Origin: Helicobacteraceae bacterium
GTDB taxonomy: Bacteria > Campylobacterota > Campylobacteria > Campylobacterales > Sulfurimonadaceae
DNA: 64,000 nucleotides
Reading direction: 5' to 3'
NCBI GenBank assembly: GCA_027038835.1
Contig: JALWGC010000003.1
Location: forward strand, 62,001-126,000
Part shown: positions 8,442 through 34,594 of the stretch, piece after piece
How positions within the stretch are numbered: the first letter of the stretch is position 1
Layout: each line of letters begins with the position of its first letter
Program-made: the position numbers and the translations under genes
The notes under the pieces: model-generated
What the model was told of the DNA's origin: nothing
Seen by the model: the letters and a program-made list of their open reading frames with translations, nothing else
Database searches by the model: none

Positions 8442-8509
8442 TTTATAGACAATTAAGCGAATTTGCTATATTTTATGTTCGATAAAAGTAGATTACGCAA
8501 GGTGAGATT

Positions 8510-8785: not shown

Positions 8786-8804
8786 AAAACGACTGGAGGC
8801 GAAA

Positions 8805-10801: not shown

Positions 10802-10861
10802 ATGAATAACCATTCATAATCCTTTAAGTTATTATTTCGTATCATATGAATGAGTATTCAT
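10802..10861 (+). promoter_or_regulatory. Two ATGAAT-N4-ATTCAT operators and promoter of hydA
   Basis: The intergenic stretch 10684-11002 (319 bp) holds, after the terminators, two copies of the dyad ATGAAT-N4-ATTCAT: 10802-10817 (spacer AACC) and 10846-10861 (spacer GAGT). Their centres are 44 bp apart, about four helical turns. Between and over them are -10-like boxes TATTAT (10830-10835) and TATCAT (10840-10845). The same dyad occurs upstream of the nickel transporter at 24562. The geometry suits a TetR-type dimer; the binding protein is inferred. Positions 10863-11002 form a leader of about 140 nt ending in the strong ribosome-binding site AGGAGGAGAG. Confidence 0.7.
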
Positions 10862-12244: not shown

Positions 12245-12247
12245 GTA

Positions 12248-14041: not shown

Positions 14042-14052
14042 AGGGGGATACA

Positions 14053-14778: not shown

Positions 14779-14790
14779 GAGTAGGGTGCA

Positions 14791-15360
14791 TTGAGTAGTA
14801 AAAAAGTAGCTCTTATAGGGGTTGGAAATATTATGTTTTGTGACGAAGGGATAGGCGCTTACGCCCTTCGTTATATAGAAAAAAATTATATAATCCCAGA
14901 GAACTTGACTCTGATCGAGGGGAGTTCACTTGGGTTTAGGATGATGACTTATTATCAAGAATATGACAAGATCATTATCTTAGGCACTGGCTCTCATAAC
15001 GATAAACCAGGAAGTGTTCGCTCTGAAAATGCAGATGAGATTTTAGCAAAAGGTCCCACTCGCAAAACTGCAAATGAAGTCGAGATCACAATGATGATCG
15101 AGATATGCTCGTTTCATGAAAATATGGCCGATGTAGAGCTTGTAACGATGGTACCAGAAGATATCGTATCGGTTAGAAACGGCTTGACGCAAGGTACACT
15201 TGAGAAGATGCCGATTTTTGTGCGAAATGTGTTGGAGGTGTTGAAAAAAGAGGGGATTGAGTTAAGAGAAAAAGATAAACATCACTCCTTTGAAGAGATC
15301 ATAGAGGAGTTTGCCAATCCAAAGCAAGAGATCGATCCTCAAAGTTTTTTAAAGAGTTAG
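14791..15360 (+). CDS. hydD: HyaD-type hydrogenase maturation protease, degenerate
   Basis: A 189-residue member of the M52 endopeptidase family: the N-terminal GVGNIMFCDEGIG is normal and gives the first metal-binding residue E19. The second ligand, normally the Asp in 'VVDA', is G65 here (IIILGTGSH), and the third, normally the His in 'HE', is N95 (TANEVE). So two of the three nickel-sensing ligands are missing. The start is TTG 14791 with AGGG 4 nt before. It is in the hydABC operon, so a role in HydB processing is expected, but the active-site changes cast doubt; the second protease at 31193 keeps the set. Confidence 0.8.
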   Translation: MSSKKVALIGVGNIMFCDEGIGAYALRYIEKNYIIPENLTLIEGSSLGFRMMTYYQEYDKIIILGTGSHNDKPGSVRSENADEILAKGPTRKTANEVEITMMIEICSFHENMADVELVTMVPEDIVSVRNGLTQGTLEKMPIFVRNVLEVLKKEGIELREKDKHHSFEEIIEEFANPKQEIDPQSFLKS

Positions 15361-15485: not shown

Positions 15486-17411
15486 ATGTATTTTATATTG
15501 GAAATCGAATTTCATTCACAAAAACACTATATAGCCGATCTAATCCGCTCTTTTGGCGAGATATATAAAGTTGCACTCGATGTTGTTCAGCGTAAAGATG
15601 CAATCGTGATCGTTGCAAACAAAGAGCAAGAAAACTTAGAATCGTTCTTACATGCACTTGAGGGTGGATTACCCGCTTCACTTTTTTTAGGTAAAAGTTC
15701 TCACTCATTTAGCGACAAAAAGCCGGAGTTCGATATAGAGGAGAAGCCAAAACTACCGCTAAACATAGCTTTGTGTCCCACTTGTCAAAAAGAGATGTTC
15801 GATGTTAGTTCAAGGCGTTATTACTACCCTTTTACTTCGTGTAGTGCTTGTGGTTCACAACATCCATTAGTTGAGCGTTACCCGTTTGTACGAGAAAACA
15901 CTTTGATGAAATTTTTTGCTCCATGCCAATCGTGTCAAGAGGAGATGCAAAGAAACCCTTTTAGAAAAAACCACCCCCTTGTTTCGTGCATAGAGTGTGG
16001 GATCGCTCTAAAGATGACAGACAAAAAAAGTGAGCGAATAGCCAATGACAAAGGGGCATACAGACGCCTTTTTGAAGTAAGCGCACAAGCTATCAAAAAG
16101 GGTAAGAGTGTATTGGTTAAAACGATGCATGGGTTTAGAAAGTTTTATCTGCCAACACAAGAGAATGTAACGCCAAAAACTCTGCTTATGATGACAGATG
16201 CGAACAAACTCAACACCCATCTAATGATGGTTCCTCAAGAGTTCAATGCTCTACTGAGCATAGAACGCCCCCTTTTGCTTGTAGCGACAAAAAGTGAAGC
16301 GTTGAAAAACCTTTTTGGTTCTAGCGTTTATGTAAAATATGCCGATGATGGTATGAGTATGCTTTTGGCAAAAGAGTTGGTAAACTGCGGAGTGGAGTAT
16401 GTTGGGTATGAGATATGTGATGAAAGTGAGAGTGCAGATTACAAAGTCGATTTTGATTTGCCGATAATGCCACAAAAAGACACAACGCTTTTTATCAACC
16501 AAGATGTAAAGTTTTTTGTCGGTGGTGAGCGTATAGTGTTCCCATCTTATGCACACAACCCTCAAGATGTTGTAACGATTGCACATGATCTTGCAGCCAC
16601 CAATGTCGATGGAAGAACGATTATCGATACGATGGAGCGTTTTAGCTCTTTTAAAACACCGCAAGTACGCATACTCGAGAGTGAGCCCATAGAGAGTAGC
16701 CACACCAATGAGGTGCGTTTTAAGCAGTACGAAGCTTCGATGGTAAGCGTTTTGGCAGAGCATGGAAAGCTTGGAGAAAAAGCGGTAGGGGTGCATTTTG
16801 ATACGGCGCTTTATTTTCTTTACTATAACGGGAGTAAGGTTATCAATGCCGTTCCGCCGGTTGCTTTTGAACCAAAAAATCTATGGAGCAAAATCGCTTC
16901 GCTTCGTGAGGGTTCTAGTAGGCTTGTGGAAAACTACAAAGAACATTTTCCAGACAGATACAAGCGTCTTGCCAACTTAGATGGTGATGAGGATATTTTC
17001 AAAGTGACTGCAATCGTTTTGGGGATAGAAGATGAGAGTTTAGGTGGTATCTCCGCTGAGGCTCTTAGCTTCCTTGGTAAAGGGGGGCTACAGATAGACA
17101 CCCGCATAAACGACAACCGCTTTGATAACTACGCTTTTTTGGCAAGTATTATGAGTTATCAGATAGCGGGAGTTGAGACAAACTACCTTTGTTATAGTAT
17201 CTACGAATCGTTTGGGGACTACATAGGGGAGATAGTACCGCAACTGGTCGATAAAGGGAAAACCCGCACCGTAGTTTTAAGCGGAGAGACCTTTGCCAAT
17301 CAGGCGCTTTATGCTAGAATAGTGCGAACATTAGGGGTTTTTGGGCCACTGATGAACAAAAACTTCCCCATAGGCAAGGAGAATGCGGTTTATGGAGCGC
17401 TCTACCTATAA
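15486..17411 (+). CDS. hydE: HypF-like accessory protein HydE
   Basis: A 641-residue paralogue of HypF of the type called HydE in Helicobacter and Wolinella hydrogenase operons. It keeps the four C-x2-C zinc knuckles (about residues 97-167: CPTC, CSAC, CQSC, CIEC), then a YrdC-like region and a Kae1-like C-terminal half ending LSGETFANQALY. It lacks the acylphosphatase domain and the Kae1 metal-binding HHYAH pattern (KQYEAS here). Carbamoyl chemistry is therefore unlikely; a scaffold or chaperone role is inferred. AGGAAAA precedes the ATG; it overlaps hypF by 20 bp. Confidence 0.85.
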   Translation: MYFILEIEFHSQKHYIADLIRSFGEIYKVALDVVQRKDAIVIVANKEQENLESFLHALEGGLPASLFLGKSSHSFSDKKPEFDIEEKPKLPLNIALCPTCQKEMFDVSSRRYYYPFTSCSACGSQHPLVERYPFVRENTLMKFFAPCQSCQEEMQRNPFRKNHPLVSCIECGIALKMTDKKSERIANDKGAYRRLFEVSAQAIKKGKSVLVKTMHGFRKFYLPTQENVTPKTLLMMTDANKLNTHLMMVPQEFNALLSIERPLLLVATKSEALKNLFGSSVYVKYADDGMSMLLAKELVNCGVEYVGYEICDESESADYKVDFDLPIMPQKDTTLFINQDVKFFVGGERIVFPSYAHNPQDVVTIAHDLAATNVDGRTIIDTMERFSSFKTPQVRILESEPIESSHTNEVRFKQYEASMVSVLAEHGKLGEKAVGVHFDTALYFLYYNGSKVINAVPPVAFEPKNLWSKIASLREGSSRLVENYKEHFPDRYKRLANLDGDEDIFKVTAIVLGIEDESLGGISAEALSFLGKGGLQIDTRINDNRFDNYAFLASIMSYQIAGVETNYLCYSIYESFGDYIGEIVPQLVDKGKTRTVVLSGETFANQALYARIVRTLGVFGPLMNKNFPIGKENAVYGALYL

Positions 17412-19998: not shown

Positions 19999-22431
19999 AT
20001 GTTAAAAGATTTTCAATTAAAAGCAAAAGATTTACCATATAGTACAAAAAGAGATATAATAAAATCATATATAGGCAAAGAGAATGAATTTCATTATGAA
20101 TTAAAAAAATTATTAGAAAAAATATATCCTGATTCATATATTGAAGTTTTGCAAGGCACAGAAGAAAAAGGGAAAGATATTGTTGTTAGAACTAAAAATA
20201 ATTTTGGGAGTTATGAACATATAGCTTTTGTAGTTAAAGCAGTTGAAAAACTATCAGGTTCAGCAACTGGAAAGACCGCGGAATTGGTTTTGCAAATTCA
20301 ACAGTCTTTTAAAACAACAGCTCAATTACAAGATATTTATGAAGAAGTTTCCATATCAAAAGTATATGTAGTGAACACGGGAACAATAACAGATGGAGCA
20401 AAAAGAAAAATTTTAAGTTTAATTGATGAACCTTCTTATAAAAATAATATACATTATTTCGCAATTGAAGATTTAATAAAATTATATGAAGAACATTATC
20501 CAGAATTTTACTTTAATGAAGATTTACAACTATTTTTTAAAAGTAGGGTTGAAAAGATTGAAAAATTTTTAATTGAAGATAAAAAGTTAAAATATTTTAT
20601 AGAGCCTTATATAAAAAGATTTAATAAAACTAAAAAAGAATTACTTGTTCAGCAAAATTCAGAAAACGACTTAAAATTAATAAGTGAACAGTTATTTGGT
20701 CATAGAGAAAACTTTCAATCATTTTTACAATTAATTACTGAAAAAAAATCTCAAAAAATTATTTTGACTGGTGAAGCTGGTTCTGGTAAATCTGTATTGT
20801 TATTTAAAATAATATTAGAATATATAAATAAATTTTTAAAACAAAATAATATAAATTCAATTACTGAGCAAAATGATTTTTCTTTTCCTGTATGTTTAAG
20901 AGCAATTGATATTCAAGATGACATTGAAAATATTGAAAATATAATAGAGGAATTTTATTCATCATCTAAAGATAATGCAATTAAAACAATTATCGTTGAT
21001 GGCATTGATGAAGTTGATAAAAATAGTAGATTATTAATTAAAGAAAAAATTGAGTCTTATGTAGCATTAAAAAATAAAAATATCACAATTGTTTTTTCTT
21101 CAAGAACTAATTTTACTATATTAGATGAGTTTGAAGAATATATACACTATGAGCTAATGCCTTATGAGACTAAACAAGCAATAGATTTTATCAAAAAAAT
21201 AGCTGAAAAACAAAGCATCTTAGTAAATAATTTAGAAAAAAGTATTTCAGAGCTAGAGGGACAAATACCTTTCTATCCTTTGGCTTTAAGATTACTTATT
21301 GAAGTGGTCGAAAAACATAATGAAATACCTGCATCAATAACAGAACTTTATAATAAATATATTGGAATTATGTTTGGTGAATTTGAAATTAGTGCAGAAA
21401 TAGATAAATTATTTGAGCCAAGAATTAAAAAAGATTTTTTTACAACTCTATCATACGAAGTTTTTTTTATAAATAATCAAGTAAAAATTACTTATGATGA
21501 ATTTATAAATTTTGTAGATATATTTTCCAAAAAACACTCATCAGTAATAACAAATCAAAAAGATTTTATTGAAAATATAAAAAGGATAAGTATTTTAAAA
21601 ATAGAAAATAGTGAAGTTTATTTTTCACATAAATCATTTTTAGACTTTTTTATTGCCAATTATTTTAAAGAGAATAAAGAAGAACTTTTAGAAGAAGATA
21701 AATTTGATGAATTATTTTCATTGTATAGTATTATTGAGCAATGGGAAGAAGTAGTATTTTTTTATTTTGGTTTAAAAGGAAAGATTATAAAAAGTGAATA
21801 TAGAAAACTGATAGAAAGTATTAATAGTCTTGAAAATCAGTTTGATAAAAATTTAAATATGTTTTATTTAGGTAGATTAGTTCAATATGCTTGGATGACA
21901 GATAGCGAATATAAAAAAGATATTATTGAAAATGCAATGTTAATATCACTTGATCTAAAAGAAAATTTTCATAAAATTTTTAAAGAGAGTTTAAATATGG
22001 AGGTTCCACATATATTAAGTAGTATAAGTATGTTTAATATGATTGATTTATGCTATTCTAGTACCTTTTTAAAAAGTGAGACAAAAGAACTAATAAGCAT
22101 TATTGATAGCAATGAGAGTAAACTTTATTTTTCTACAATTTATATATTAAAGAATTCAGCATTGTTAGGTAATGAATTTATAAATCAAAGTTTAAAAAAG
22201 ATGCTTCCATTAATTCAAAATATAAAAGAATTAGAAAATAAAGTACTTTTGACAATGTTAATAGATTTTTTTGATAAAAAAGGTCGTATTGAATTAGATG
22301 ATGAACTAGATAAAAGTATTAAAAAATTAATCAATAAATATAAAAAAAGTTTTCCAGATGTATTTAAGAGTATATTAGCAATAAAAAAGAATTCATTTAA
22401 AAATTTAAAACGAGAGTTATCTAAACATTAA
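19999..22431 (+). CDS. NACHT NTPase with N-terminal nuclease-like domain (putative defence protein)
   Basis: An 810-residue STAND-type protein. Residues about 20-150 resemble an Mrr-like PD-(D/E)XK fold: FHYELKKLLEKIYP, EEKGKDIVVRT, then HIAFVVKAVEK, with the Asp and Lys in place but Val where E/Q normally precedes the Lys. A NACHT module follows: Walker A GEAGSGKS (about 257), Walker B IIVDGIDEVD (about 335), sensor SSRTNF, and FYPLALRLLIEVV. The C-terminal half is helical without clear repeats. This is the plan of bacterial NLR-like anti-phage proteins (sensor C-terminus, nuclease effector). Base composition is far more AT-rich than the hyp genes. 8 nt before the restriction gene. Confidence 0.8.
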   Translation: MLKDFQLKAKDLPYSTKRDIIKSYIGKENEFHYELKKLLEKIYPDSYIEVLQGTEEKGKDIVVRTKNNFGSYEHIAFVVKAVEKLSGSATGKTAELVLQIQQSFKTTAQLQDIYEEVSISKVYVVNTGTITDGAKRKILSLIDEPSYKNNIHYFAIEDLIKLYEEHYPEFYFNEDLQLFFKSRVEKIEKFLIEDKKLKYFIEPYIKRFNKTKKELLVQQNSENDLKLISEQLFGHRENFQSFLQLITEKKSQKIILTGEAGSGKSVLLFKIILEYINKFLKQNNINSITEQNDFSFPVCLRAIDIQDDIENIENIIEEFYSSSKDNAIKTIIVDGIDEVDKNSRLLIKEKIESYVALKNKNITIVFSSRTNFTILDEFEEYIHYELMPYETKQAIDFIKKIAEKQSILVNNLEKSISELEGQIPFYPLALRLLIEVVEKHNEIPASITELYNKYIGIMFGEFEISAEIDKLFEPRIKKDFFTTLSYEVFFINNQVKITYDEFINFVDIFSKKHSSVITNQKDFIENIKRISILKIENSEVYFSHKSFLDFFIANYFKENKEELLEEDKFDELFSLYSIIEQWEEVVFFYFGLKGKIIKSEYRKLIESINSLENQFDKNLNMFYLGRLVQYAWMTDSEYKKDIIENAMLISLDLKENFHKIFKESLNMEVPHILSSISMFNMIDLCYSSTFLKSETKELISIIDSNESKLYFSTIYILKNSALLGNEFINQSLKKMLPLIQNIKELENKVLLTMLIDFFDKKGRIELDDELDKSIKKLINKYKKSFPDVFKSILAIKKNSFKNLKRELSKH

Positions 22432-22439
22432 GGAAATTT

Positions 22440-23282
22440 ATGTCTAATATATTAAAAGCCATTATAAATATAGTACAAAATCCCATTATTGACTTGGTTG
22501 ATTATTATCAAGGAAGAAATAGAATAAACAATAGCGGTAAAGCTTTAGAAGATTACATACAAGATATATTTGCAGGAACTTTAAATGAAGATGATGAAAA
22601 TAAAAGACTTCAAAGATTAGAAGAAATCTTTTCATATCAAGGCAATCAAAATAACCCACCTGATTTGATTTTAAAAGATTCTGATGCAATAGAGGTTAAA
22701 AAATTACAATCAAAAAATTCTGCTATTGCTTTAAATAGCTCTTATCCAAAAGCAAAGTTATATGCTTCTAGTCCTATGATAACAAATGCTTGTCGAACTT
22801 GTGAAGAGTGGGAGGAAAAAGATATTATTTATACTATTGGCTATACAGATGACAACTCTTTAAAATCTTTATGGCTTATTTACGGAGATTGTTTTTGTGC
22901 AGATAAAGAGATTTATGAAAGAATTAAAAATACTATTTCAGATGGTATAAATTCAATTCCTGATGTAGAATTTGCACAAACAAATGAGCTTGGAAAAGTT
23001 AAAAAAGTTGACCCGCTTGGTATTACAGATTTAAGAATTAGAGGTATGTGGCATATAAAAAACCCAAATAAAATTTTTGATTATATTTATGAGTTTGATG
23101 AAGAGGCTAAATTCCAGTTAATTTCTTTGATGAAGCTAGAAAAATATAGCTCAATGCCTACAGAAGATAGAGAAATTTTAGAGCAACTTGAAAATATAAA
23201 TATTCAAGATATAAAAATAAAAAATCCTAATAATCCAATCCAGTTAGTAGATGTAAAACTAATAACTTTTAAGGTGCTATAA
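22440..23282 (+). CDS. Type II restriction endonuclease, NgoPII family (likely GGCC)
   Basis: A 280-residue enzyme closely resembling R.NgoPII over its whole length: [37 protein letters not shown] (catalytic D...E-x-K), [29 protein letters not shown], and [20 protein letters not shown]. NgoPII cuts GG^CC, so that specificity is expected. AAGGAAATTT before the ATG is the ribosome-binding site. The gene overlaps the methyltransferase by one base (TAATG). Very AT-rich, as the rest of the island. Confidence 0.9.
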
Positions 23283-24382
23283 TGGAAATAATTTCGCTAT
23301 TTTCAGGTGCTGGAGGACTTGATTTAGGCTTTGAAAAAGCTGGATTTAAAACTATTTGGGCAAATGAGTATGATAAAGAGATATGGGAAACTTATGAAAA
23401 AAATTTTCCAAATACTTTTTTAGATAAAAGAAGTATAAAAGATGTTCCATCAAGTGAAATTCCTGAAGCTATTGGGCTTATTGGCGGACCACCTTGTCAA
23501 AGTTGGAGTGAAGCCGGAAAATTAAAGGGGATAGATGACCATAGAGGACAACTATTTTTTGAATTTATAAGAGTTTTAAGAGATAAAAAGCCACTATTTT
23601 TTTTGGCTGAAAATGTATCTGGAATGTTAGCTTCAAGACACAATGAAGCACTTAAAAATATCAAAAAACATTTTACAGATAGTGGGTATGATTTATATTT
23701 CAAATTATTAGATGCCGTAGATTTTAAAGTTGCACAAAATAGAAAACGGGTTTTTTTTATAGGATTTAGAAAGGATTTAAATATCAAATTTGAATTTCCT
23801 AAGCCATTCAAGAAAAAAAGAGTTTTAAAAGATGTTATTTGGGATTTAAAAGATAATGTATTACCTGCAAAAGATAAAAATTATACAAATGGTGATGCTT
23901 GTAAGATTCCAAATCATGAGTATTTACTTGGGAGTTTTTCATCTATTTTTATGTCAAGAAATCGTGTAAGAAGTTGGGATGAACCATCTTTTACTATTCA
24001 AGCTGGTGGTAGACATGCACCACTTCATCCGCAAGCTCCTAAAATGCAATTTGTAGAGCAAAACAAAAGAATATTTGTTCCAAATTATGAACATTTATAT
24101 AGAAGATTAAGTATTAGAGAATGCGCTAGAATTCAATCTTTTCCTGATGAACATATATTTTACTATAAAAATTTAACAGCAGGATATAAAATGGTAGGTA
24201 ATGCTGTTCCACCATATTTGGCTTATTATTTAGCAAAAGAGATACAAAAACAGTTAGCAAGTATTTATCCTAACAAATCCTTGGAACTAACAAGCGAACC
24301 TATCGCTGAGAAATCAAATATTAACGATATATCGTATATTTCTTATCAAAAATTTGAGCATATTTTAAGTGACGGATTATAA
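23282..24382 (+). CDS. DNA (cytosine-5) methyltransferase, NgoPII-type
   Basis: A 366-residue C5 methyltransferase. Motifs in order: [29 protein letters not shown] with the catalytic Cys at about residue 74; [28 protein letters not shown] near [34 protein letters not shown]. The target-recognition region lies between about 200 and 290. It should protect GGCC from the neighbouring endonuclease. Complete, with a short charged tail. It is the last island gene. Confidence 0.95.
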
Positions 24383-24555: not shown

Positions 24556-24577
24556 TATTATATGAATGATTATTCAT
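24556..24577 (+). promoter_or_regulatory. ATGAAT-N4-ATTCAT operator at the nickel transporter promoter
   Basis: TATTAT at 24556-24561 is a good -10 box. It is followed at once by ATGAAT-GATT-ATTCAT (24562-24577), the same dyad seen twice before hydA. A protein bound here would cover the transcription start, so repression is expected. The first codon of the transporter is 15-18 bp downstream. Confidence 0.7.
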
Positions 24578-24594
24578 TTTTTTAAGGCTCTATG

Positions 24595-25236
24595 ATGGAA
24601 CTTTCACTGCTGCTTATTTTTTGGTATGGCATTTTACACGCGTTTGGACCTGATCATCTCACGGCTATCGCGGACTTTTCGATTGGGAAGGAGAAATCAA
24701 AAACGCTCCTTATAACCGTTTTGTTTGCCATAGGGCATGGGTTGAGTCTGTTTGTTTTTGCAAAAGTGCTTGAAGCGTTTCCACTCTCTCAATCGATTTT
24801 GGAATGGGGAGATGTGATTTCGGCTACGGTTATCCTTGGGATGGGTGTGTATCTACTCTATATGGTGTTTGCCGGGCGTATCCATCTGAGTAAGCATATG
24901 CATGAAGGCAAAGAGCATGTGCATATCTGGTTTGGTAAATCGCATCAACACGAAGACAAAATCGTTGAGAGTTCATCATTTACCATGGGGCTTTTGATGG
25001 GGGCCGGTGGTGTTAGAGGGATGCTCATAACCCTAGGTGCAGTTGGTAGTGGGCATGTTGATCTTAGCCTTGTTGCCGCGTTTACTGCGGGTGTTATGCT
25101 GATTTTTGTCGGGTTTGGATTTGTCATCTTGTACATAAACGAGCATCTACTCGATTCGGAAAAAAATGTCAGACGTGTTTTTGCGACGGCTGGAGCGGTT
25201 TCGCTTGTCGTTGGAACAAATATACTTTTAGGATAG
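24595..25236 (+). CDS. NicO/NiCoT-like nickel transporter
   Basis: About 213 residues with six or so hydrophobic helices. Helix 1 has HAFGPDHLTAI, the H-x4-D-H type metal signature of nickel/cobalt permeases, and helix 2 has FAIGHGLSLFVFA, the second family signature. A histidine-rich loop (LSKHMHEGKEHVHIWFG, HQHED) is in the middle. It likely imports nickel for HypA/HypB and the hydrogenases. Two ATGs in a row (24592, 24595); AAGG fits 24595 better. It heads the hypBCDE operon. Confidence 0.8.
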   Translation: MELSLLLIFWYGILHAFGPDHLTAIADFSIGKEKSKTLLITVLFAIGHGLSLFVFAKVLEAFPLSQSILEWGDVISATVILGMGVYLLYMVFAGRIHLSKHMHEGKEHVHIWFGKSHQHEDKIVESSSFTMGLLMGAGGVRGMLITLGAVGSGHVDLSLVAAFTAGVMLIFVGFGFVILYINEHLLDSEKNVRRVFATAGAVSLVVGTNILLG

Positions 25237-25246
25237 GAGAAAAGAT

Positions 25247-26017
25247 ATGTGTGCAGATTGCGGTTGTAGTATAACAGGAACAAGCCATGAGCATCATCAC
25301 GAACACGATCATAGCCATGAGCATCAAAAAGCGCATGAGCATTTGCATCATAACCCACAGCTAAACGATGCAAAAACGATCTCGGTAATTCAAAAGATTC
25401 TTGATAAAAACGATCATGAAGCCGAGCATAACAGAGTCCACCTTGAAAAAGCAGGCGTGCTTGGGATCAACCTTATGAGCAGTCCCGGTAGTGGAAAAAC
25501 AACCCTTTTGGAGTATCTTGCCGATGTTGCGGAGTTTAAGTTCGGTGTAGTCGAGGGAGATCTGGAGACAAACCGTGATGCCGATAGACTCAAAGCCAAA
25601 GGGATCCCAGCTGTGCAGATACAAACAGGAAGTGCGTGTCATTTAGATGCGTTTATGGTGCATAAGGGGCTGCATGATATGCCGCTTGAGGAGATAGATG
25701 TCTGTTTTGTCGAAAATGTCGGCAACTTGGTATGTCCTGCAAGTTACGATGTGGGAACACATCTAAATATCGTTTTGGTTTCCGTGCCTGAGGGGGAGGA
25801 CAAGATTGCCAAATACCCCGTGATGTTCCGTCAGGCTGATTTGGTGCTTATAACCAAGACCGATCTTTTGCCATACTTCAAGTATGACATCGAAGCGGAG
25901 AAAAAAGAAGCTAGACGGATAAAACCCAATGTCGATATACTCGAAGTCAACATCAACGATATCGACTCCATCAAAGCGGTAGCGGAGTGGATAGAGTTCA
26001 AAAGAAGGATGCGCTGA
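25247..26017 (+). CDS. hypB: Hydrogenase nickel incorporation GTPase HypB
   Basis: A 256-residue GTPase. It has an N-terminal metal-binding tail MCADCGC followed by a histidine-rich stretch (residues about 14-36, more than ten His) that can store nickel. The G domain has the P-loop SSPGSGKTTLL, GDLETNRDADR, the metal-site region GSACHLDA, and the TKTDLLPY specificity strand. It supplies nickel to the large subunits together with HypA. It ends by overlapping hypC by one base (TGATG). Confidence 0.97.
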   Translation: MCADCGCSITGTSHEHHHEHDHSHEHQKAHEHLHHNPQLNDAKTISVIQKILDKNDHEAEHNRVHLEKAGVLGINLMSSPGSGKTTLLEYLADVAEFKFGVVEGDLETNRDADRLKAKGIPAVQIQTGSACHLDAFMVHKGLHDMPLEEIDVCFVENVGNLVCPASYDVGTHLNIVLVSVPEGEDKIAKYPVMFRQADLVLITKTDLLPYFKYDIEAEKKEARRIKPNVDILEVNINDIDSIKAVAEWIEFKRRMR

Positions 26018-26310
26018 TGTGTTTGTCGATCCCAAGCAAAGTGGTAGAGATCTCTGAAGATAAAACGACATGTACCGTCGATACGATGGGGGTAAAAAGG
26101 GAAGCCAACCTTATGATGATGGCTGATGGCGATGTGCAAGTGGGGGATTATGTTTTGTTGCATATCGGGTTTGTGATGAACAAGATCGATGAGAAAGAGG
26201 CACTTGCTTCCATAGAGACTTACAAAGAGATTTTGGAGCTAATGGACGAGGAGGAACGCCAAAAGGCGATCCTTGAGGATGATGAGTGTCCAAACAGAGG
26301 CGCTCCATGA
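26017..26310 (+). CDS. hypC: Hydrogenase maturation chaperone HypC
   Basis: A 97-residue HypC/HupF protein. The N-terminal MCLSIPSKVVEI holds the essential Cys2 that carries the Fe(CN)2CO unit with HypD and contacts the large subunit. It has a beta-barrel core and an acidic tail. The start is fixed by the Cys2 motif and by the one-base overlap with hypB. It overlaps hypD by 4 bp. Confidence 0.96.
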   Translation: MCLSIPSKVVEISEDKTTCTVDTMGVKREANLMMMADGDVQVGDYVLLHIGFVMNKIDEKEALASIETYKEILELMDEEERQKAILEDDECPNRGAP

Positions 26311-27449
26311 GTTTGGAGCTAAGAAATCTCTATGATGATTTTCGCGATCCTCAAACGATCAAGGCGTATGCGAAGCTTATAGAGGAAGAGGCAAAAAAGC
26401 TTGATCGAAGCATCAACATCATGGAGGTGTGTGGCGGACATACCCACACCATTATGAAATACGGTCTGCCGCAACTTATGCCAAAAAATGTCAAGTTTAT
26501 CCATGGTCCCGGATGCCCCGTGTGCATCATGCCAAAACACCGCATTGACCATGCCTACACTTTGGCGATGCAAAAAGATGTGATCCTTGTTACTTTGGGA
26601 GATATGATAAAGGTGCCAGGAAGCAAGGGAAGTTTGCAAGATGCCAGAAGCAAGGGTGCGGATGTGCGTTTTGTGTATTCTCCGATGGAGTGTGTGAAGA
26701 TAGCTAATGAAAATCCGGATAAAAGGGTAGTCTTTTTTGCCATCGGGTTTGAGACCACAACGCCGATGAGTGCAACCCTTATCGATGTGGTGCAAAAACA
26801 GGGTATAAAAAACATCCTTTTTCATATCAACCATGTAACGGTTCCTGAGGTGATGGAGGAGCTTATCAACAGTCGTGATGAGCATATCGACAGCTATAAC
26901 AACCAAATAAACGCCTTTTTGGGACCAAGCCATGTGAGTGTGATAGCCGGGGCGAAGATCTATGAGAAGTTTCCAAAAGAGTACAACCGTCCAGTCGTAG
27001 TGAGCGGTTTTGAGCCAGTCGATGTGATGGAAGGGGTACTGATGGTGCTTCGCCAGTTCAACGAAAATAGATGCGAAAACGAGATACAGTACAAACGGGT
27101 AGTAAGCTACGAGGGCAACCTCAATGCACAGCGTATCATCAAGCACTATTTCGAAAAAGCGAGTCTTTTTAAGTGGCGAGGACTTGGCAATGTTCCAAAC
27201 AGCGGCTGGAGACTCAAAAGCGAATACAGCGAACTCGATGCCGAAAAAGTGTTTGAAGATGTGCTGCCGATAGAGGAGATAGAGGATCACAAGCTCTGCA
27301 TTTGTGGCGATATCTTGCGAGGGATGGCACATCCTACGGAGTGTACGATCTTTGGCACTGCATGCAAGCCAAACAACCCGGTTGGCAGTTGTATGGTAAG
27401 CAGTGAGGGGGCGTGTGCGGCGTATTATAAGTATGGGAATCTTCTTTGA
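26307..27449 (+). CDS. hypD: Hydrogenase maturation protein HypD
   Basis: A 380-residue Fe-S protein, the scaffold on which Fe(CN)2CO is built. Conserved blocks: MEVCGGHTHTIMKYGL, the GPGCPVCIMP motif, FFAIGFETTTP, and the C-terminal cysteines CICGDILRG, PTECTIFGTACKP that bind the [4Fe-4S] cluster. Start at ATG 26307 by the 4-bp overlap with hypC. Confidence 0.97.
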   Translation: MSLELRNLYDDFRDPQTIKAYAKLIEEEAKKLDRSINIMEVCGGHTHTIMKYGLPQLMPKNVKFIHGPGCPVCIMPKHRIDHAYTLAMQKDVILVTLGDMIKVPGSKGSLQDARSKGADVRFVYSPMECVKIANENPDKRVVFFAIGFETTTPMSATLIDVVQKQGIKNILFHINHVTVPEVMEELINSRDEHIDSYNNQINAFLGPSHVSVIAGAKIYEKFPKEYNRPVVVSGFEPVDVMEGVLMVLRQFNENRCENEIQYKRVVSYEGNLNAQRIIKHYFEKASLFKWRGLGNVPNSGWRLKSEYSELDAEKVFEDVLPIEEIEDHKLCICGDILRGMAHPTECTIFGTACKPNNPVGSCMVSSEGACAAYYKYGNLL

Positions 27450-27476
27450 GGATTTAGGTTTTAGGATGGGGGTTAG

Positions 27477-28472
27477 ATGAGAAAGAGTGTTGCTTTGGCT
27501 GCCGGGAATGGCGGTGAGGAAAATAGTGAACTGATATCGGGAGTTTTTTATAAGTATTTTAAAAACGACATCCTGCTAAAAAGTGAAGATGCGGCGGTTT
27601 TGGAGGTTGGCTCCAAAGTGGCGATGAGTACCGATAGCTTTACCGTCTCGCCACTCTTTTTTCCCGGTGGCAATATCGGGAAGTTGGCTATTTGTGGGAC
27701 ATGTAACGATCTAGCGATGATGGGAGCAAAACCAAAATATATAACGGTTGGTTTTATCATCGAAGAGGGGTTTGACTACAGAGAGCTTGAGAAGATCGTG
27801 CGCTCGATGAAAAAAGAGCTTGAGATTAACGATGCATTGGTCGTTAGTGGCGATACAAAGGTGATGCCAAAAGGGACGATCGATAAGCTCATTATCAACA
27901 CAACCGGAATCGGCGAGATAGAAAAAGAGGGGATAAGCTCCAACAATATAAGTGAAGATGATGCCATCCTAGTTAGCCGCGACATCGGTGCGCATGGTGC
28001 GACCATCTTTACCGCAAGAGAGGGGATAGAACTAAGCAGTGAATTGCAGTCTGATTGTGCATCGCTTTATCCAACAGTAAAAGCGTTGATAGAAGCAGGA
28101 GTTGAGATAACCGCGATGCGTGATGCCACACGGGGTGGTGTTGCTGCAGTGCTTAACGAGTGGGCAAAACAAAGCGATGTGTGTATAGAGGTAGCAGAAG
28201 ATGCCATTCCTGTTTCACCTGAAGTGTTTGGCGTGTGTGAGATGCTTGGGTTTGAGCCGACAATGTTGGCAAACGAGGGGACATTTTGTTTGGCTATCAA
28301 ACAAAAAGATGCCCAAAAAGCACTCGAAATTCTTCAAAAGTTCAACAACAACGCACAGATCATCGGTAAAGTAAGCGATGAACATAAACAAAGAGTGGTA
28401 CTTCAAAGCAGTTATGGCACCAAACGGTTTTTAGATACCCCAACGGGGGAGCTACTGCCGCGGATTTGTTGA
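27477..28472 (+). CDS. hypE: Hydrogenase maturation protein HypE
   Basis: A 331-residue PurM-like ATPase that dehydrates the S-carbamoyl group to a thiocyanate and gives cyanide to iron. ATP-binding segments GNGGEENSELI, MSTDSFTVSP, GTCNDLAMMGAKP and MRDATRGGVAAVLNEWA are present. The essential C-terminal cysteine is the very last residue, in the terminal PRIC. GGGGG precedes the ATG. 1 nt separates it from hypX. Confidence 0.97.
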   Translation: MRKSVALAAGNGGEENSELISGVFYKYFKNDILLKSEDAAVLEVGSKVAMSTDSFTVSPLFFPGGNIGKLAICGTCNDLAMMGAKPKYITVGFIIEEGFDYRELEKIVRSMKKELEINDALVVSGDTKVMPKGTIDKLIINTTGIGEIEKEGISSNNISEDDAILVSRDIGAHGATIFTAREGIELSSELQSDCASLYPTVKALIEAGVEITAMRDATRGGVAAVLNEWAKQSDVCIEVAEDAIPVSPEVFGVCEMLGFEPTMLANEGTFCLAIKQKDAQKALEILQKFNNNAQIIGKVSDEHKQRVVLQSSYGTKRFLDTPTGELLPRIC

Positions 28473-28473
28473 A

Positions 28474-30117
28474 ATGAAAATCACCCTCCTTGTAACCACC
28501 TTTAACTCCCTTTCACAAATGGCTTATACAAAACTAAAAGATATGGGGCATATAGTAGATGTGGTGTATGCCATTGGTGATATGCAGATGATACAAGAGG
28601 TTGCAGCGTTTATGCCAGATATAATCATCTGCCCTTTTTTGAAGAAGTTCGTTCCAAAAGAGATTTTTACCGCTTATTCCACCTTTATTATCCATCCGGG
28701 GATCATCGGCGATAAGGGGGCTTTTGCACTTGATAATGCCATACGGGAAGAGAAGCAAGAATGGGGCGTTACGATACTAAGAGCCGACGAAGAGTTTGAT
28801 GGTGGAGATGTGTATGTGGAAGAGCGCTTTGATATGCGTCCAAGCTACAAAGCGAGTCTTTACCGCCGGGAGGTGTTTTTTGCCGCTTCAAAGGCACTAG
28901 ATAAACTCTTAGAGCGTATAAAAGATCCCAACTTCACACCATCGCCACAACCATCAACCCCTATGCACCCATACCTTACTCAAAAAGAGCGGCAAATCGT
29001 CTGGGAGAGCGATACCACGGATGAAATAATCAAAAAGATCTATATGAGCGATAGCCACCCGGGAGTGCTTGATGAGATACTCGGTACAGAGTGCTACCTT
29101 TTTGGTGCGCATAAAGAGGAGCGGTTTCACGGTAAGCCAAAAGAGATACTTGCCAAACGAGATGGAGCTATATGCCTTGGAACGGTCGATGGTGCGGTGT
29201 GGATAAGCCATCTAAAACCATTAGGTGGTTTCAAGCTTCCTGCCACCTATGTGCTAAAAAGCAAACTCAAAGGGATCAAAGAGCAAAGACTACCTCTTAT
29301 CTTCGATAGAAGCTATGCGACCTTTTATGAGATAAGTTGCGATGTAAAAGATGAGGTTGCGTACCTACGCTTTAACTTTCATAACGGTGCGTTTAGAGCG
29401 GAGCAGTGTATGCGGCTCAAGTACGCTTTTGAGTATATCAAAGAGCAGGTTAAAGTGGTGGTGCTGATGGGTGGAGAGGATTTTTTCAGTAACGGCATCA
29501 ACCTCAACATCCTTGAAGATAGCAAAAAAAACGGAGAGGATGGTTGGAGCAACATCAACGCCATCAACGATCTTGTGCATTCTGTCATTTTTGCACACGA
29601 TGTGATGACGGTAGCGAGTCTGCACAAAAACGCAGGTGCCGGTGGGGTGTTTTTGGCTGCGGCGTGTGATTATGTGGTGGGTAAAAAAGAGATCGTGTTA
29701 AACCCTCACTACAAAACTTTGGGATTAAGTGGAAGCGAATACCACACCTATACCTTGCCAAAACGGGTTGGCAAAGAGATGGCACAAGAGCTTTTAGATA
29801 GATGTCTGCCAATAAGTGTAAACAAAGCTCACAAGTTAGGTTTGGTCGATGTGGTGCTTGAGGGGGAGTATATGCAAAGTTTGGAGCGTTTTTGCAATGA
29901 GCTTGTAGAGGATGAAGAGAAGTATGAGGATTTTCTTTGGGAAAAAGAGGAGTATCTTTTAGAAAACGAAACGCTGATAGAGCGGCACAAAGAGGATGAG
30001 CTTCGTGTGATGCACCCTGAATTTTGGGAAGAAGATAGCCCTTTTCACAAACTCCGATATGAGTTCGTCTATAAAATCTGCCCAACACAAACACCAAAAA
30101 GGTTAAAACATGCATGA
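28474..30117 (+). CDS. hypX: HypX, CO-ligand synthesis enzyme
   Basis: A 547-residue two-domain protein. The N-terminal half is a formyltransferase-like domain (TFIIHPGIIGDKGAFALD, EEFDGGDVYVEERF); the C-terminal half, from about residue 285, is a crotonase/enoyl-CoA hydratase-like domain (VVLMGGEDFFSNGINLNIL, HKNAGAGGVFLAAACDYV). HypX proteins make the CO ligand of the NiFe site from formyl-tetrahydrofolate via formyl-CoA, needed mainly under air. Its presence suggests hydrogen use with oxygen. It overlaps hypA by 8 bp. Confidence 0.93.
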   Translation: MKITLLVTTFNSLSQMAYTKLKDMGHIVDVVYAIGDMQMIQEVAAFMPDIIICPFLKKFVPKEIFTAYSTFIIHPGIIGDKGAFALDNAIREEKQEWGVTILRADEEFDGGDVYVEERFDMRPSYKASLYRREVFFAASKALDKLLERIKDPNFTPSPQPSTPMHPYLTQKERQIVWESDTTDEIIKKIYMSDSHPGVLDEILGTECYLFGAHKEERFHGKPKEILAKRDGAICLGTVDGAVWISHLKPLGGFKLPATYVLKSKLKGIKEQRLPLIFDRSYATFYEISCDVKDEVAYLRFNFHNGAFRAEQCMRLKYAFEYIKEQVKVVVLMGGEDFFSNGINLNILEDSKKNGEDGWSNINAINDLVHSVIFAHDVMTVASLHKNAGAGGVFLAAACDYVVGKKEIVLNPHYKTLGLSGSEYHTYTLPKRVGKEMAQELLDRCLPISVNKAHKLGLVDVVLEGEYMQSLERFCNELVEDEEKYEDFLWEKEEYLLENETLIERHKEDELRVMHPEFWEEDSPFHKLRYEFVYKICPTQTPKRLKHA

Positions 30118-30451
30118 ATACAGCGTAGTACAAGCACTGCTAAATCAGTGTGAGGCGGTAGCAAAAGAGAATGACGCCCAGAAGATAACCAAAGTGGTCT
30201 GCAAGATAGGGGTGATGAGCGGCATAGAGATCCACTTGCTTCAAGTTGCCTTTGACACCTTCAAAGAGGGGACGATGTGTGCGGACGCGGAGTTTGTCAT
30301 AAACGAGCAAAAACTCAAGCTAGAGTGCAAGGAGTGTGGGCATATTTTTGAAACCGATGAGGTGCGCTACTACTGCGTCAAATGTGAGAGCCTCAAAGTC
30401 AAAGTGCTTGATGGGGAAGATATGTATCTTATGAGTTTGGAGATGGAGTGA
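30110..30451 (+). CDS. hypA: Hydrogenase nickel incorporation protein HypA
   Basis: A 113-residue zinc/nickel metallochaperone. It begins MHEYSVV, giving the His2 nickel ligand, and has the two C-x2-C zinc pairs (CKECGH at about 77 and CVKCES at about 93). Partner of HypB. It starts within the end of hypX and shares one base (TGATG) with the next gene. Confidence 0.96.
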   Translation: MHEYSVVQALLNQCEAVAKENDAQKITKVVCKIGVMSGIEIHLLQVAFDTFKEGTMCADAEFVINEQKLKLECKECGHIFETDEVRYYCVKCESLKVKVLDGEDMYLMSLEME

Positions 30452-31203
30452 TGCAAGAGTACTGGGAAATTTATATGAAACTAATCGATGGCAAAATAGC
30501 TTCGGTGCTTTTTAATGCCGGGATTTCGATCGATATCGAAGAAAACAAATACATCTTTCCAACCATCGCGTTTGTAAAAGTGAAGCTCAAAGAGCCAAAC
30601 GAGCGAGGGTTGTTAAGTCAGAGTGAAGAGGCGGAGATCTCCTTTTTGGAAGACAAGCTCGAAGCTTCGATGCTGAAGTTTCGCATCGGGAAATATGTCG
30701 GGCGGATTATAAGCGATGGGCATGTTACCTTTTTGTACTATTTGCAGTTTACCTACAACTGGCAAGATTTTTTGGAGTTTGCCTTAAAAGAGTTCCAAAA
30801 CTACGAGATAACGAGTGGATATCAAGAGGATGGGGAGTGGAACTATTATAAAAAGCTACTCTACCCCACACCAAAAGAGTGGCAGATTATCCAAAACCAT
30901 AAAGCATGTGATGCATTAAAAGCAAAAGGGGACAACCTTCACCTTCCAAGAGCTATAGAACATAAACTTTTTTTTACGCAAGGGGAGGAGCAAAAAGAGG
31001 CACTTATAGCTAAGCTAAAATCCAAAGGGTTTAGAGTACAAGGTGAGATAACGAACAAAGAGGGTGTAAAAGGGCTTGGTTTTTACCGTATAGACAAACC
31101 TTTTTACCAAGATATCGACGATTTGACACTCCAACTTATCGATTTGGTCGAGGAGTATGGGGCAAGTTATGACGGCTGGGAAACGAGTGTTGTCAAATCA
31201 TAA
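30451..31203 (+). CDS. DUF695/RraB-like two-domain protein at the end of the hyp operon
   Basis: About 250 residues. The first half (WEIYMKLIDGKIASVLFN, ERGLLSQSEEAEISFLEDKLE) matches the DUF695 pattern; the C-terminal quarter (EEQKEALIAKLKSKGFRV, then EEYGASYDGWETSVV) resembles RraB, a regulator that inhibits RNase E in E. coli. Campylobacterota often lack RNase E, so the RraB part may act on another partner. It overlaps hypA by one base, so it belongs to the hyp transcript; its function there is unknown. Confidence 0.65.
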   Translation: MQEYWEIYMKLIDGKIASVLFNAGISIDIEENKYIFPTIAFVKVKLKEPNERGLLSQSEEAEISFLEDKLEASMLKFRIGKYVGRIISDGHVTFLYYLQFTYNWQDFLEFALKEFQNYEITSGYQEDGEWNYYKKLLYPTPKEWQIIQNHKACDALKAKGDNLHLPRAIEHKLFFTQGEEQKEALIAKLKSKGFRVQGEITNKEGVKGLGFYRIDKPFYQDIDDLTLQLIDLVEEYGASYDGWETSVVKS

Positions 31204-31726
31204 CCCCACTAGGGTCGTTGGCACGACTTATGATCTCTTCCAAAGAGATCGAGTTTGAATTTTTGGTCGTTTCGATCCCTTGGCTTTTTAGATATTGCAA
31301 AATAACACGGATATAGTCTTCAAAGGCGTCTTTTAGCGTTTCGCTTAGGTTTATCTCAAAAGTTATGTGCTTTGGAACGATCCCAAGAAGCATCGTTTTT
31401 GGTATCTCATACCCTTGAAGCTCGAGCATATCCAAACATTGTATAACCCCAATCTCATGCGCTCCACCGCTGTTTAGTCCATAGCCGCTCAACTCCTTGG
31501 CAGGTATGGCATAGATGGAAGCGGGGGTATCTTCTACTTCTATAGAATCAAGTATCACGATCTCGTCGTTTTCTAAAAAGTGGTTAAAAAGGTTGATCCC
31601 CTCCACTCCGCCGTTTACAATCTTTACATCGGGGTCAAAATTGTAGTTTTGTGCCAAATAGCTCGAGGCATACACCCCGATCCCATCATCTTTTTGCAAC
31701 ACATTGCCTATCCCTATAATCACCAT
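31193..31726 (-). CDS. HyaD/HupD-type hydrogenase maturation protease (second)
   Basis: A 177-residue M52 endopeptidase with GIGNVLQKDDGIG, D14 in place of the usual Glu ligand, D60 (VILDSIE) and H90 (GGAHEIG) retained. So all three metal positions hold acidic or His residues, unlike HydD. HupV has no C-terminal peptide, so this enzyme is the better candidate for cutting HydB. It is divergent from tetR and overlaps the previous gene's end by 11 bp. Confidence 0.85.
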   Translation of the reverse strand: MVIIGIGNVLQKDDGIGVYASSYLAQNYNFDPDVKIVNGGVEGINLFNHFLENDEIVILDSIEVEDTPASIYAIPAKELSGYGLNSGGAHEIGVIQCLDMLELQGYEIPKTMLLGIVPKHITFEINLSETLKDAFEDYIRVILQYLKSQGIETTKNSNSISLEEIISRANDPSGVMI

Positions 31727-31812: not shown

Positions 31813-32403
31813 ATGAGAAAAGAGAAAAAACTACTTAAAAAAGAGACCATAATGCAAGCGGCTTTGGAGCTTTTTGCAATAAATGGCTTTCACAGAACGA
31901 CTATACCCGATATAGCCACGAAAATAGGGATGAGCGTTGGCAATCTTTATAACTATTTTTCTTCAAAAGATATCTTGGCTCAAGAGATCATCAAATACAC
32001 CTCCGAAGTTCTCGGAGAGAAGATCAAAGAGGTAAATCAACTCGATATAGGTGCTAAAGAGAAGATTCACAAAATCGTTACCATCTACTTTGAAACCGCA
32101 AAAGAGCAGCCTGAGATGATAGAGTATTTTTTGCGTGTTTACCTTTCAAACAGAGAGGTATTTGCCGATGGATGTGAGGGGATGGTGTGTGTATCTGGGT
32201 TTATAACGGAGATTATGATCTTTTTCGATGATGGTGTAAGCAAGGGGGAATTGAGAAATCAAGATTTTTTCTCCGCTTTTGGACTTTTTATGGGGTATCT
32301 TGGTGGAATGGTGTTTTTAAAAGGTGAGGGTGTTTTACCAAAAGATATTTCAGAATATATCGATGATATTGCAAGAAATATCTATTATGCACTGAAAGTA
32401 TAG
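31813..32403 (+). CDS. TetR family transcriptional regulator, co-transcribed with sensor hydrogenase
   Basis: A 196-residue TetR protein. The helix-turn-helix (residues about 12-58: IMQAALELFAINGFHRTTI, IGMSVGNLYNYFSSKDIL) is canonical; the rest is the ligand-binding/dimer domain. It is the first gene of tetR-hupU-hupV, with 2 nt to hupU. No histidine kinase or NtrC-type regulator, the usual partners of HupUV, is in the window. It is the natural candidate for binding ATGAAT-N4-ATTCAT at hydA and the nickel/hyp operon. Confidence 0.85.
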   Translation: MRKEKKLLKKETIMQAALELFAINGFHRTTIPDIATKIGMSVGNLYNYFSSKDILAQEIIKYTSEVLGEKIKEVNQLDIGAKEKIHKIVTIYFETAKEQPEMIEYFLRVYLSNREVFADGCEGMVCVSGFITEIMIFFDDGVSKGELRNQDFFSAFGLFMGYLGGMVFLKGEGVLPKDISEYIDDIARNIYYALKV

Positions 32404-32405
32404 TT

Positions 32406-33296
32406 ATGGGGAAAAAGCCTAAGATTATTTGGCTTCAGTCGATCACTTGCAACGCAAATGCACACTCTTTTTTAAACCATCCAAACCTTTTTTCGATCCT
32501 TTCACATTTTTCATTACAGTACCATCCTGTACTTGAAACATCTTATGGTTTAAAAGACTTGAGTGAGCTTAAAGTGCCTTGCGATATTTTGATAATAGAG
32601 GGTGCAATAAGAGAAGAGGGGTGGAAAAAAAACGACATAGAGGTTGCACAGATGATCCGCCATTATGCCACAAGGGCATCTTACATCATAACCGTTGGGA
32701 CTTGTGCAACTTTTGGTGGGATATTCAAGCAAAAAGATCCAAAAAAGATAAGCGGTTTTTGTTTCGATAACGACAAAAAAACTTTCCGATACGATCTGTA
32801 TAAGGAGAAACTTATCTCACTTCCGGGATGCCCCATACACCCGGAGTGGTTGTCGTATCTTCTTTTGATGATACAATCGAAGAAAAAGATCCCCCTTGAT
32901 GGTATGCACCGTCCACGGGAACTTTACGGTTATACCGTTCATAACGGGTGTACCCGAAATGAGTATTTCGAGTGGAAGGTAGATACCCCAGGATTTGGAC
33001 ACAAAGAGGGGTGTCTGTTTTATGAGCAAGGGTGTCAAGCACCCTATACACATGGGAGTTGCAATAAAATTTTATGGAATGATGTAAGCTCCAAAACGCG
33101 CATCGGTACCCCATGTTTTGGGTGTACTGAGCCAAACTTTCCAAAGCAGAACTTTTTTCAGACAGAAACGAACATGGGGATCCCTGCGCAAATGCCCCTT
33201 GGTGTACCAAAAAGGGCGTATCTGATGTTAGCGGGTGTAGCGAAAAGTTTTAAAATAAAGCGTTTTAGTCAGACACTTTTGGAGTATGATGAGTGA
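32406..33296 (+). CDS. hupU: Cytoplasmic sensor-type [NiFe]-hydrogenase small subunit
   Basis: A 296-residue small subunit without a Tat signal or C-terminal anchor, so cytoplasmic, as in HupU/HoxB. Cluster residues: C15 with N18 where the second proximal cysteine is expected (SITCNANAH), C100 (GTCATFGG), C142 (LPGCPIHP); H179, C182, C203, C210; C219, C237, C240. So all ligands are present except the C-x2-C partner, replaced by Asn as in HydA. Overlaps hupV by 4 bp. Group 2-like; sensor role inferred from the lack of export signal and from HupV. Confidence 0.85.
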   Translation: MGKKPKIIWLQSITCNANAHSFLNHPNLFSILSHFSLQYHPVLETSYGLKDLSELKVPCDILIIEGAIREEGWKKNDIEVAQMIRHYATRASYIITVGTCATFGGIFKQKDPKKISGFCFDNDKKTFRYDLYKEKLISLPGCPIHPEWLSYLLLMIQSKKKIPLDGMHRPRELYGYTVHNGCTRNEYFEWKVDTPGFGHKEGCLFYEQGCQAPYTHGSCNKILWNDVSSKTRIGTPCFGCTEPNFPKQNFFQTETNMGIPAQMPLGVPKRAYLMLAGVAKSFKIKRFSQTLLEYDE

Positions 33297-34594
33297 AAAA
33301 GGTTCGCATAAAAGAGCTTGTGGAAAAAATAGAAGGGGAAGCGGAGCTTGAATTTGATTTTGTAGATGGGGTTATCGATAATGTAGAGATAAACTTTGGG
33401 TTTTATCGTGGGATCGAGGAGATACTACAAGGGCGTGATCCTATGGATGCTCTTGTTATCACTCCAAGGGTATGCGGCATATGCAACCATGCTCATCTTA
33501 TAGCGGCGGTAACTGCCATAGAGGATGGCTATAAAAACGGTGGTTTGGAGTTTGAACTTAGTAACAAAGCGAAATATATACGGGAGTTCACTCTTTCGTG
33601 TGAGCTTATCCAAAACCATGCAAAATGGTTTTATATCACTATAATTCCTCAGTTAGAGGCACTTTTGGGGGTTGCGAGTGGGCAGAACCATCCATTAAAA
33701 GCGAACTATATCTCAACCACCATCACCAAAGCACTTGCTATCTTTGCAGGACAGTGGCCCCACTCTTCATATGTGGTTCCCGGTGGAGTGACTTGCGATC
33801 CGACATATTTGGAGGTTGTTCAAGCCGACTCTTTGATCGATGAGGTGATACGGTTTTTTGAACAAGTCGTTGTCGGGATCGATATGCAAACCTATCTTGG
33901 TATCGACACATACAACCAATTAAATACACTTGAAGGTGATTTTGGACGTGTTTTGCATCTACTGCGAAGTAGCGCTTTGGCGACATTGGGACAAAGTCAC
34001 GATCGTTTCATCGTTTTGGGCGAATCGAGCCTCGCTCCAAGAGGAAAAGCGGTTGCAACGACAGTTTCGAATGTAGATCTTCGTTATGTAGCAGAGAGTG
34101 AGCAAAAAGGAAGTAAAGCAAAAGCTGCGCATTACAAGGGGAAATTCTACGAAGTTGGACCTTTGTCTCGTGCTATGTTGGCAAAAAGAGGTTTGATCAA
34201 GAGTTTACATAAACGCCATAAAGATAGCATCTTTAGTCGGATATTTGCACGGATCGATGAGATCGCTCTTTTGCTCCAAAGAGCGAAGCAGATTTTGCAT
34301 CTACTGAGTTTGGATGAACCATCATGTGTGTTAGATATGAAAAAAAAGCCACAAAATTTTAGCGGAAGCGGTGCTGTTGAAGCGGCAAGAGGATCTTTGT
34401 TGCATCGTTTGGTCGTTGAGGATTCGAAGATAAAAAATTACGATATCATCACACCGACACAATGGAATCTCTCTTGCAACTCCAAAGAGGAAACAGGGAT
34501 CGCCATCAAGGCGATGCAAGGGTTAAAAGGTACAGACGAAGCGAAGTTTGTTTTTAGAACTTTCGATGTATGTTCGGTGTGTACGACACAGTGA
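33293..34594 (+). CDS. hupV: Cytoplasmic sensor-type [NiFe]-hydrogenase large subunit
   Basis: A 433-residue large subunit. L1 motif RVCGICNHAH gives C61, C64; the C-terminus is DVCSVCTTQ with C427 and C430, then stop. There is no cleavable C-terminal peptide, and Gln replaces the terminal His, features of hydrogen-sensing hydrogenases that mature without a protease. It is shorter than HydB. It uses GTG/ATG overlap with hupU. It needs HypA-F for its NiFe centre, so its state would report both hydrogen and maturation capacity. Confidence 0.85.
   Translation: MKKVRIKELVEKIEGEAELEFDFVDGVIDNVEINFGFYRGIEEILQGRDPMDALVITPRVCGICNHAHLIAAVTAIEDGYKNGGLEFELSNKAKYIREFTLSCELIQNHAKWFYITIIPQLEALLGVASGQNHPLKANYISTTITKALAIFAGQWPHSSYVVPGGVTCDPTYLEVVQADSLIDEVIRFFEQVVVGIDMQTYLGIDTYNQLNTLEGDFGRVLHLLRSSALATLGQSHDRFIVLGESSLAPRGKAVATTVSNVDLRYVAESEQKGSKAKAAHYKGKFYEVGPLSRAMLAKRGLIKSLHKRHKDSIFSRIFARIDEIALLLQRAKQILHLLSLDEPSCVLDMKKKPQNFSGSGAVEAARGSLLHRLVVEDSKIKNYDIITPTQWNLSCNSKEETGIAIKAMQGLKGTDEAKFVFRTFDVCSVCTTQ

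Follow-up and report, generated by a model that had tools for sequence, protein, structure and literature searches.

We propose that the operon tetR-hupU-hupV constitutes a hydrogen-responsive genetic switch, in which HupUV would sense H2 and relieve TetR repression of both the catalytic hydrogenase (hyd) genes and the hydrogenase maturation (hyp) genes, a reading to which we assign a probability of about 0.72. The whole stretch of DNA analysed here, referred to as the window, is 64 kb long, and the first-pass annotation had described within it a tight operon with a 2-nt gap and a 4-bp overlap, both of which are confirmed by the coordinates of the genes.

31813-32403, + strand: tetR, a TetR-family regulator of 196 aa (TetR_N domain, AF2 model, Foldseek matches), predicted repressor of hyd and nicO-hyp
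32173-32190, + strand: codons of the invariant cysteine pair C121-x4-C126 of TetR, in a loop between helices (orthologue alignment)
32406-33296, + strand: hupU, a cytoplasmic hydrogenase small subunit of 296 aa (NiFe_hyd_SSU_C and Oxidored_q6 domains)
33293-34594, + strand: hupV, a hydrogenase large subunit of 433 aa with a GTG start (NiFeSe_Hases domain)

This arrangement is no local accident. Among 298 Campylobacterota genomes searched, 67 encode HupV (spread over 29 of the 58 genera) and 68 encode TetR, and the two genes occur together in 66, with tetR alone in two genomes and hupV alone in one. The single hupV-only genome (G294) has its locus at a contig edge; of the two tetR-only genomes, one (G203) lacks hupUV and carries only a broken tetR, and the other (G142) has an intact tetR adjoining hydSL and no hupUV anywhere in the genome. 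In the G142 locus (L112) tetR (8263-8871) retains both cysteines, and the hydS1 operator described below is kept, with a site at 10422. The order and common strand of tetR-hupU-hupV are maintained in 65 of the 66 shared loci, in which neighbouring genes either overlap or are separated by only a few bases, and in most of these 65 the catalytic hydSL genes lie directly downstream; at three loci (L079, L088 and L092) tetR-hupUV is present and catalytic hydSL is absent from the fetched stretch. TetR is the better conserved of the two proteins, at 55-83% identity versus 35-61% for HupV.

A second, largely independent set of loci from another collection, consisting of the best 80 of 302 relatives and all from Campylobacterota, has TetR upstream in 70 of the 72 loci with enough upstream sequence; the exceptions are L196, which is near a contig edge and also lacks hupU, and L245, which is either a true exception or a frameshift. 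The comparison of gene order across Campylobacterota, which the first-pass annotation had suggested as a check, is thus strongly positive. Members include Sulfurovum mangrovi and Sulfurimonas paralvinellae, both plasmid-borne, together with Poseidonibacter lekithochrous and metagenome genomes of Nautiliaceae, Sulfurimonas and Sulfuricurvum. HupV relatives on plasmids outside the phylum are at most 29% identical, and there is no TetR neighbour at the three non-phylum loci inspected (Cupriavidus, Thermus and Bradyrhizobium).

Several features of HupU and HupV are of the sensor type. HupV contains both CxxC motifs and ends ...DVCSVCTTQ without a cleavable C-terminal peptide, and in all 67 HupV proteins the four cysteines (C61, C64, C427 and C430) are kept and the protein ends three residues past the last of them. 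Cupriavidus necator HoxC and Bradyrhizobium HupV have the same kind of ending, whereas a C-terminal peptide is present in a Thermus group-2 enzyme and in the window's own catalytic subunit, which with HupV makes up the two NiFe large subunits of the host genome. HupU has no Tat signal, starts 'MGKKPKIIWLQS' and aligns with cytoplasmic HoxB/HupU; it has cysteine ligands for three Fe-S clusters. The RH-type narrowing of the gas channel (HoxC Ile62/Phe110) was also considered as sensor evidence and set aside, the Ile being kept and the Phe position being variable.

The H2 sensors described so far relay their signal by way of a histidine kinase and an NtrC activator, with cyclic di-GMP suspected as an alternative route. 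The proteins encoded here resemble the HupUV/HoxBC sensors of HydDB group 2b, which are linked to histidine kinases (PMC5037454), in having cytoplasmic small and large subunits with CxxC NiFe motifs, a large subunit ending at the last CxxCxxH without a cleavable peptide, a linked regulator gene, and an uptake hydrogenase as the target, which in our case is predicted. They differ in that neither a kinase nor an NtrC regulator accompanies them; relative to the pHG1 order hoxA-hoxB-hoxC-hoxJ, tetR occupies the hoxA position and hoxJ is missing. In addition, HupU is without the C-terminal tail of HoxB/HupU and in most members has CxxN instead of CxxC at the proximal cluster, and HupV is only ∼25% identical to HoxC. 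The best PDB match to HupV, by both sequence and fold, is the group 2a enzyme Huc of M. smegmatis; a Thermus relative (L110), however, has a C-terminal peptide past the last His and an adjoining protease gene, and by the criterion drawn from that relative the group 2a cleavable peptide is absent from 67 of 67 HupV proteins. A second hydrogenase maturation protease is encoded at 31193-31726 (- strand), divergent from tetR, with HupV itself having no cleavable peptide.

The TetR protein matches PF00440 (TetR_N) with 54.8 bits against a cut-off of 24 (E 8e-15) and has no other Pfam domain. Its AF2 model (pLDDT 87.7) is an all-helical fold whose Foldseek matches are TetR folds, including B. subtilis FadR, and it is confident except for loop residues ∼112-128 (pLDDT 53-61). 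C121 and C126 are nonetheless invariant in 66 of 66 HupUV-linked TetRs, and the most conserved stretch of the protein is F-L-R-V-Y-L...R-E-V-F..G-C-E-G-M-x-C-V. A loop that is modelled with low confidence and yet is invariant suggests that the model lacks a partner, a cofactor or a redox change. The C-x4-C motif occurs in none of seven TetR paralogues, from four genomes, that are not paired with HupUV, and these form a separate sister clade (100/98 support). The solo TetR of G142 nests inside the HupUV-linked clade, a position suggesting that HupUV was later lost from that genome. The paralogues are at loci L113 (6891 and 7594), L114, L115, L116, L117 (9541) and L118 (7071); those of L113, L117 and L118 adjoin other hydrogenase operons (group-1-like, or NuoB/Ech-like with hypA) and have TGAATN4ATTCA-type sites near them, and they suggest that TetR regulators of hydrogenases form a broader family.

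At the leader and promoter of hydS1 there is a palindrome, TGAATRNNYATTCA, which we predict to be the TetR operator. Its occurrences and the predicted target operons are as follows.

10803-10816, no strand assigned: operator 1 upstream of hydS1, TGAATAACCATTCA (sequence match)
10847-10860, no strand assigned: operator 2 upstream of hydS1, TGAATGAGTATTCA, immediately 3′ of the -10-like TATCAT (sequence match)
11003-15360, + strand: predicted target 1, a catalytic (group 1-type) hydrogenase operon of four genes, namely small subunit hydS1 (11003-12244), large subunit (12248-14041), cytochrome b (14029-14778) and HyaD protease (14791-15360)
24563-24576, no strand assigned: operator upstream of nicO-hyp, TGAATGATTATTCA, immediately 3′ of the -10-like TATTAT (sequence match)
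24592-30451, + strand: predicted target 2, nicO-hypBCDE-hoxX-hypA, with nicO at 24592, hypB at 25247, hypC at ∼26026, hypD at 26286, hypE at 27477, a hoxX-like gene at 28474 and hypA at 30110-30451

The dyads to which the first-pass annotation had alluded are real: TGAATNNNNATTCA is present at 10803, 10847 and 24563, three occurrences in 64 kb where 0.13 are expected, and none of 100 shuffles reaches three. RNNY-type sites number exactly three in the 1.97-Mb host genome, all of them in this window's hydrogenase region. When the operator is scored on 10 fixed bases, shuffled sequences reach 9 in 4% of cases and 10 in none, and a match of at least 9/10 lies within 400 bp of hydS1 in 58 of 61 tetR-bearing loci, 40 of them perfect. 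By contrast, only two of 30 Campylobacterota hydrogenase operons without tetR-hupUV have the operator (one perfect, one 9/10), a difference with a Fisher p of 8e-18 that overstates independence, as related genomes are counted separately. Apparent decayed remnants are seen at the same place in some tetR-less operons (L147, L148 and L167), and the low scores at three hydS1 loci (L064, L074 and L076) may be due to the assigned start site or to a degenerate operator. In the second locus set the hydS1 operator is found in 71 of 73, and genome-wide at least one RNNY-type site is present in 64 of 68 tetR-bearing genomes (mean 2.2) versus 67 of 229 without tetR. Sites at both hydS1 and nicO-hyp also occur in S. 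mangrovi and S. paralvinellae. One further locus, L169 of genome G164, has a perfect operator 76 bp upstream of hydS1, and neither a TetR orthologue nor HupUV was detected in that genome.

The median distance from the start of the operator to hydS1 is 38 bp, and immediately upstream of the operator there is an enrichment of -10-like hexamers (at least 5/6; 33% versus 11%, p 3e-12; 57 sites, with the window's own locus left out and related genomes counted separately), examples of this juxtaposition being TATTATatgaatgattattcat and TATCATatgaatgagtattcat. Because the operator abuts -10 hexamers, TetR is most likely a repressor. Bacillus FadR (YsiA), which is among the best fold matches, is a TetR-family repressor, and its operator is of the TGAATGA-N-TCATTCA kind, the same kind as that predicted here; the two proteins are only ∼19% identical, however, and FadR binds acyl-CoA, whereas the TetR described here has an invariant cysteine loop and hydrogenase targets.

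The hydrogenase region contains further genes. Between hypF and nicO (19999-24382) are genes for an 810-aa P-loop-type ATPase, a 280-aa restriction-endonuclease-like protein and a 366-aa DNA cytosine methyltransferase, which by eye read as a restriction/defence island within the hydrogenase cluster. A second HypF-like protein of 641 aa (15486-17411), with a zf-HYPF and a weak HypF C-terminal domain, is encoded by a gene that, across the class, sits between the hydrogenase operon and hypF. The hyp operon includes a HoxX-like protein (28474-30117) with formyl-transferase and enoyl-CoA hydratase domains, proteins of this kind being linked to CO-ligand synthesis under O2, and a DUF695-RraB fusion gene (30448-31203) overlaps hypA.

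The proposed switch has several steps, which we hold with different degrees of confidence. From comparison of sequences it is strongly predicted that TetR binds the palindrome abutting the promoters of the catalytic hydrogenase and of the nickel-import and hyp maturation operons, and from the -10 adjacency it would repress both. The first-pass annotation had suggested a direct TetR output for a hydrogen-sensing hydrogenase, and one part of this, the wiring from TetR to hyd, is now well supported by a conserved predicted operator at the hyd promoter that is tied to the presence of tetR. The other part, that HupUV, an unprocessed cytoplasmic [NiFe] hydrogenase, serves as the H2 sensor for TetR, we infer from the near-perfect co-occurrence, the operon structure and the sensor-type sequence. 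In the presence of H2, HupUV would alter TetR, most plausibly by contact with or electron transfer to the C-x4-C loop, and the altered TetR would leave its sites; one repressor would then do the work that in HupUV/HoxBC systems falls to a histidine kinase and an NtrC regulator. More tentatively, and somewhat against the odds in our estimation, electrons from HupUV or its H2-induced state may pass straight to TetR, with a change in the loop, either between dithiol and disulfide or at a metal or Fe-S centre, switching DNA binding; the redox step at C121/C126 is a hypothesis.

Published expression data are mixed in this regard. The enzymes resembling HupUV in Aliarcobacter and Sulfurospirillum, huaSL and hupSL, form a second hydrogenase beside a group 1b enzyme (PMC12286921, PMC5357620), their group 2d class being that given in PMC12286921; HydDB describes group 2d as 'Unresolved role. 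May generate reductant for carbon fixation or have a regulatory role' (PMC5037454). With H2, A. butzleri hynAB is up 2.3-6.2-fold and huaSL is down, the electron donor also having been changed (PMC12286921), which favours the switch. Against it, S. multivorans hydB is constitutive, being expressed alike with and without added H2, and hupL is hardly transcribed (PMC5357620); a tetR co-transcribed with hupL might likewise be silent, a situation consistent with the repressor being absent. G142, which keeps TetR and operator without HupUV, also speaks against the switch, since it raises the possibility of a further signal for TetR, as does the perfect hyd site in G164. In the open-access literature we found no proposal of TetR control of hyd, of HupUV-TetR signalling, or of an operator or regulon for group 2d.

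It seems to us unlikely that HupUV is instead an uptake hydrogenase with a catalytic role in the cytosol (supplying reduced ferredoxin for CO2 fixation, for example), with TetR sensing a metabolite, redox state or nickel, and the genes united only by an island of H2 metabolism. Such a role has been proposed for Nautilia (PMC2628731) and is possible for group 2d (PMC5037454), every active-site cysteine is retained, and G142 does without HupUV; but HupV is without a cleavable tail, as in sensor hydrogenases, the huaSL and hupL data run the other way, and the link between TetR and HupUV holds in 66 genomes, among them the three loci with no catalytic hydSL in the fetched stretch.

Signalling by HupUV through an unlinked histidine kinase, with TetR as an independent layer of control, has in our judgement a slim chance. 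The host genome has 21 HATPase_c matches from which a kinase could be drawn, but the best HoxJ-like matches are confined to the generic kinase core, and the HoxB-type C-terminal tail is missing from HupU. The first-pass annotation had reported neither a HupT/HoxJ kinase nor an NtrC-type regulator in the window, and indeed no ORF of the 64 kb matches HoxJ or HoxA; nor is there evidence for a HupT/HupR pair elsewhere, which it had named as counting against direct wiring, FlgR being the only NtrC-type protein genome-wide and no HupR/HoxA-type regulator being found. HoxJ- or HoxA-like genes are near just three of the 66 loci, HoxJ-like genes near two. Hardly any likelihood attaches to TetR repressing its own tetR-hupUV operon rather than hyd, as was guessed for S. 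multivorans, where a TetR-like gene upstream of hupSL was noted earlier as a possible repressor of hupSL (PMC5357620). A match of at least 9/10 does lie upstream of tetR in 11 of 66 loci, but several of these, in Nautiliales, overlap the start of a divergent hypA, the best match upstream of tetR in the window is 7/10, and the sites are at hydS1 in 58 of 61 loci and in the window also at nicO-hyp; with no general operator upstream of tetR, we rejected autoregulation as a general scheme.

If the tetR-hupU-hupV switch is real, it would be a much shorter H2 circuit, built on a single repressor and spread across Campylobacterota, a phylum that figures prominently in hydrothermal-vent and sulfidic-water habitats. 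The switch gives the group 2d [NiFe] hydrogenases of these bacteria a testable function, with hyd and nicO-hyp as the predicted regulon, and would offer a compact H2-responsive module for biosensors. Should the relay through the cysteine loop also be true, that function would be a direct enzyme-to-repressor redox relay.
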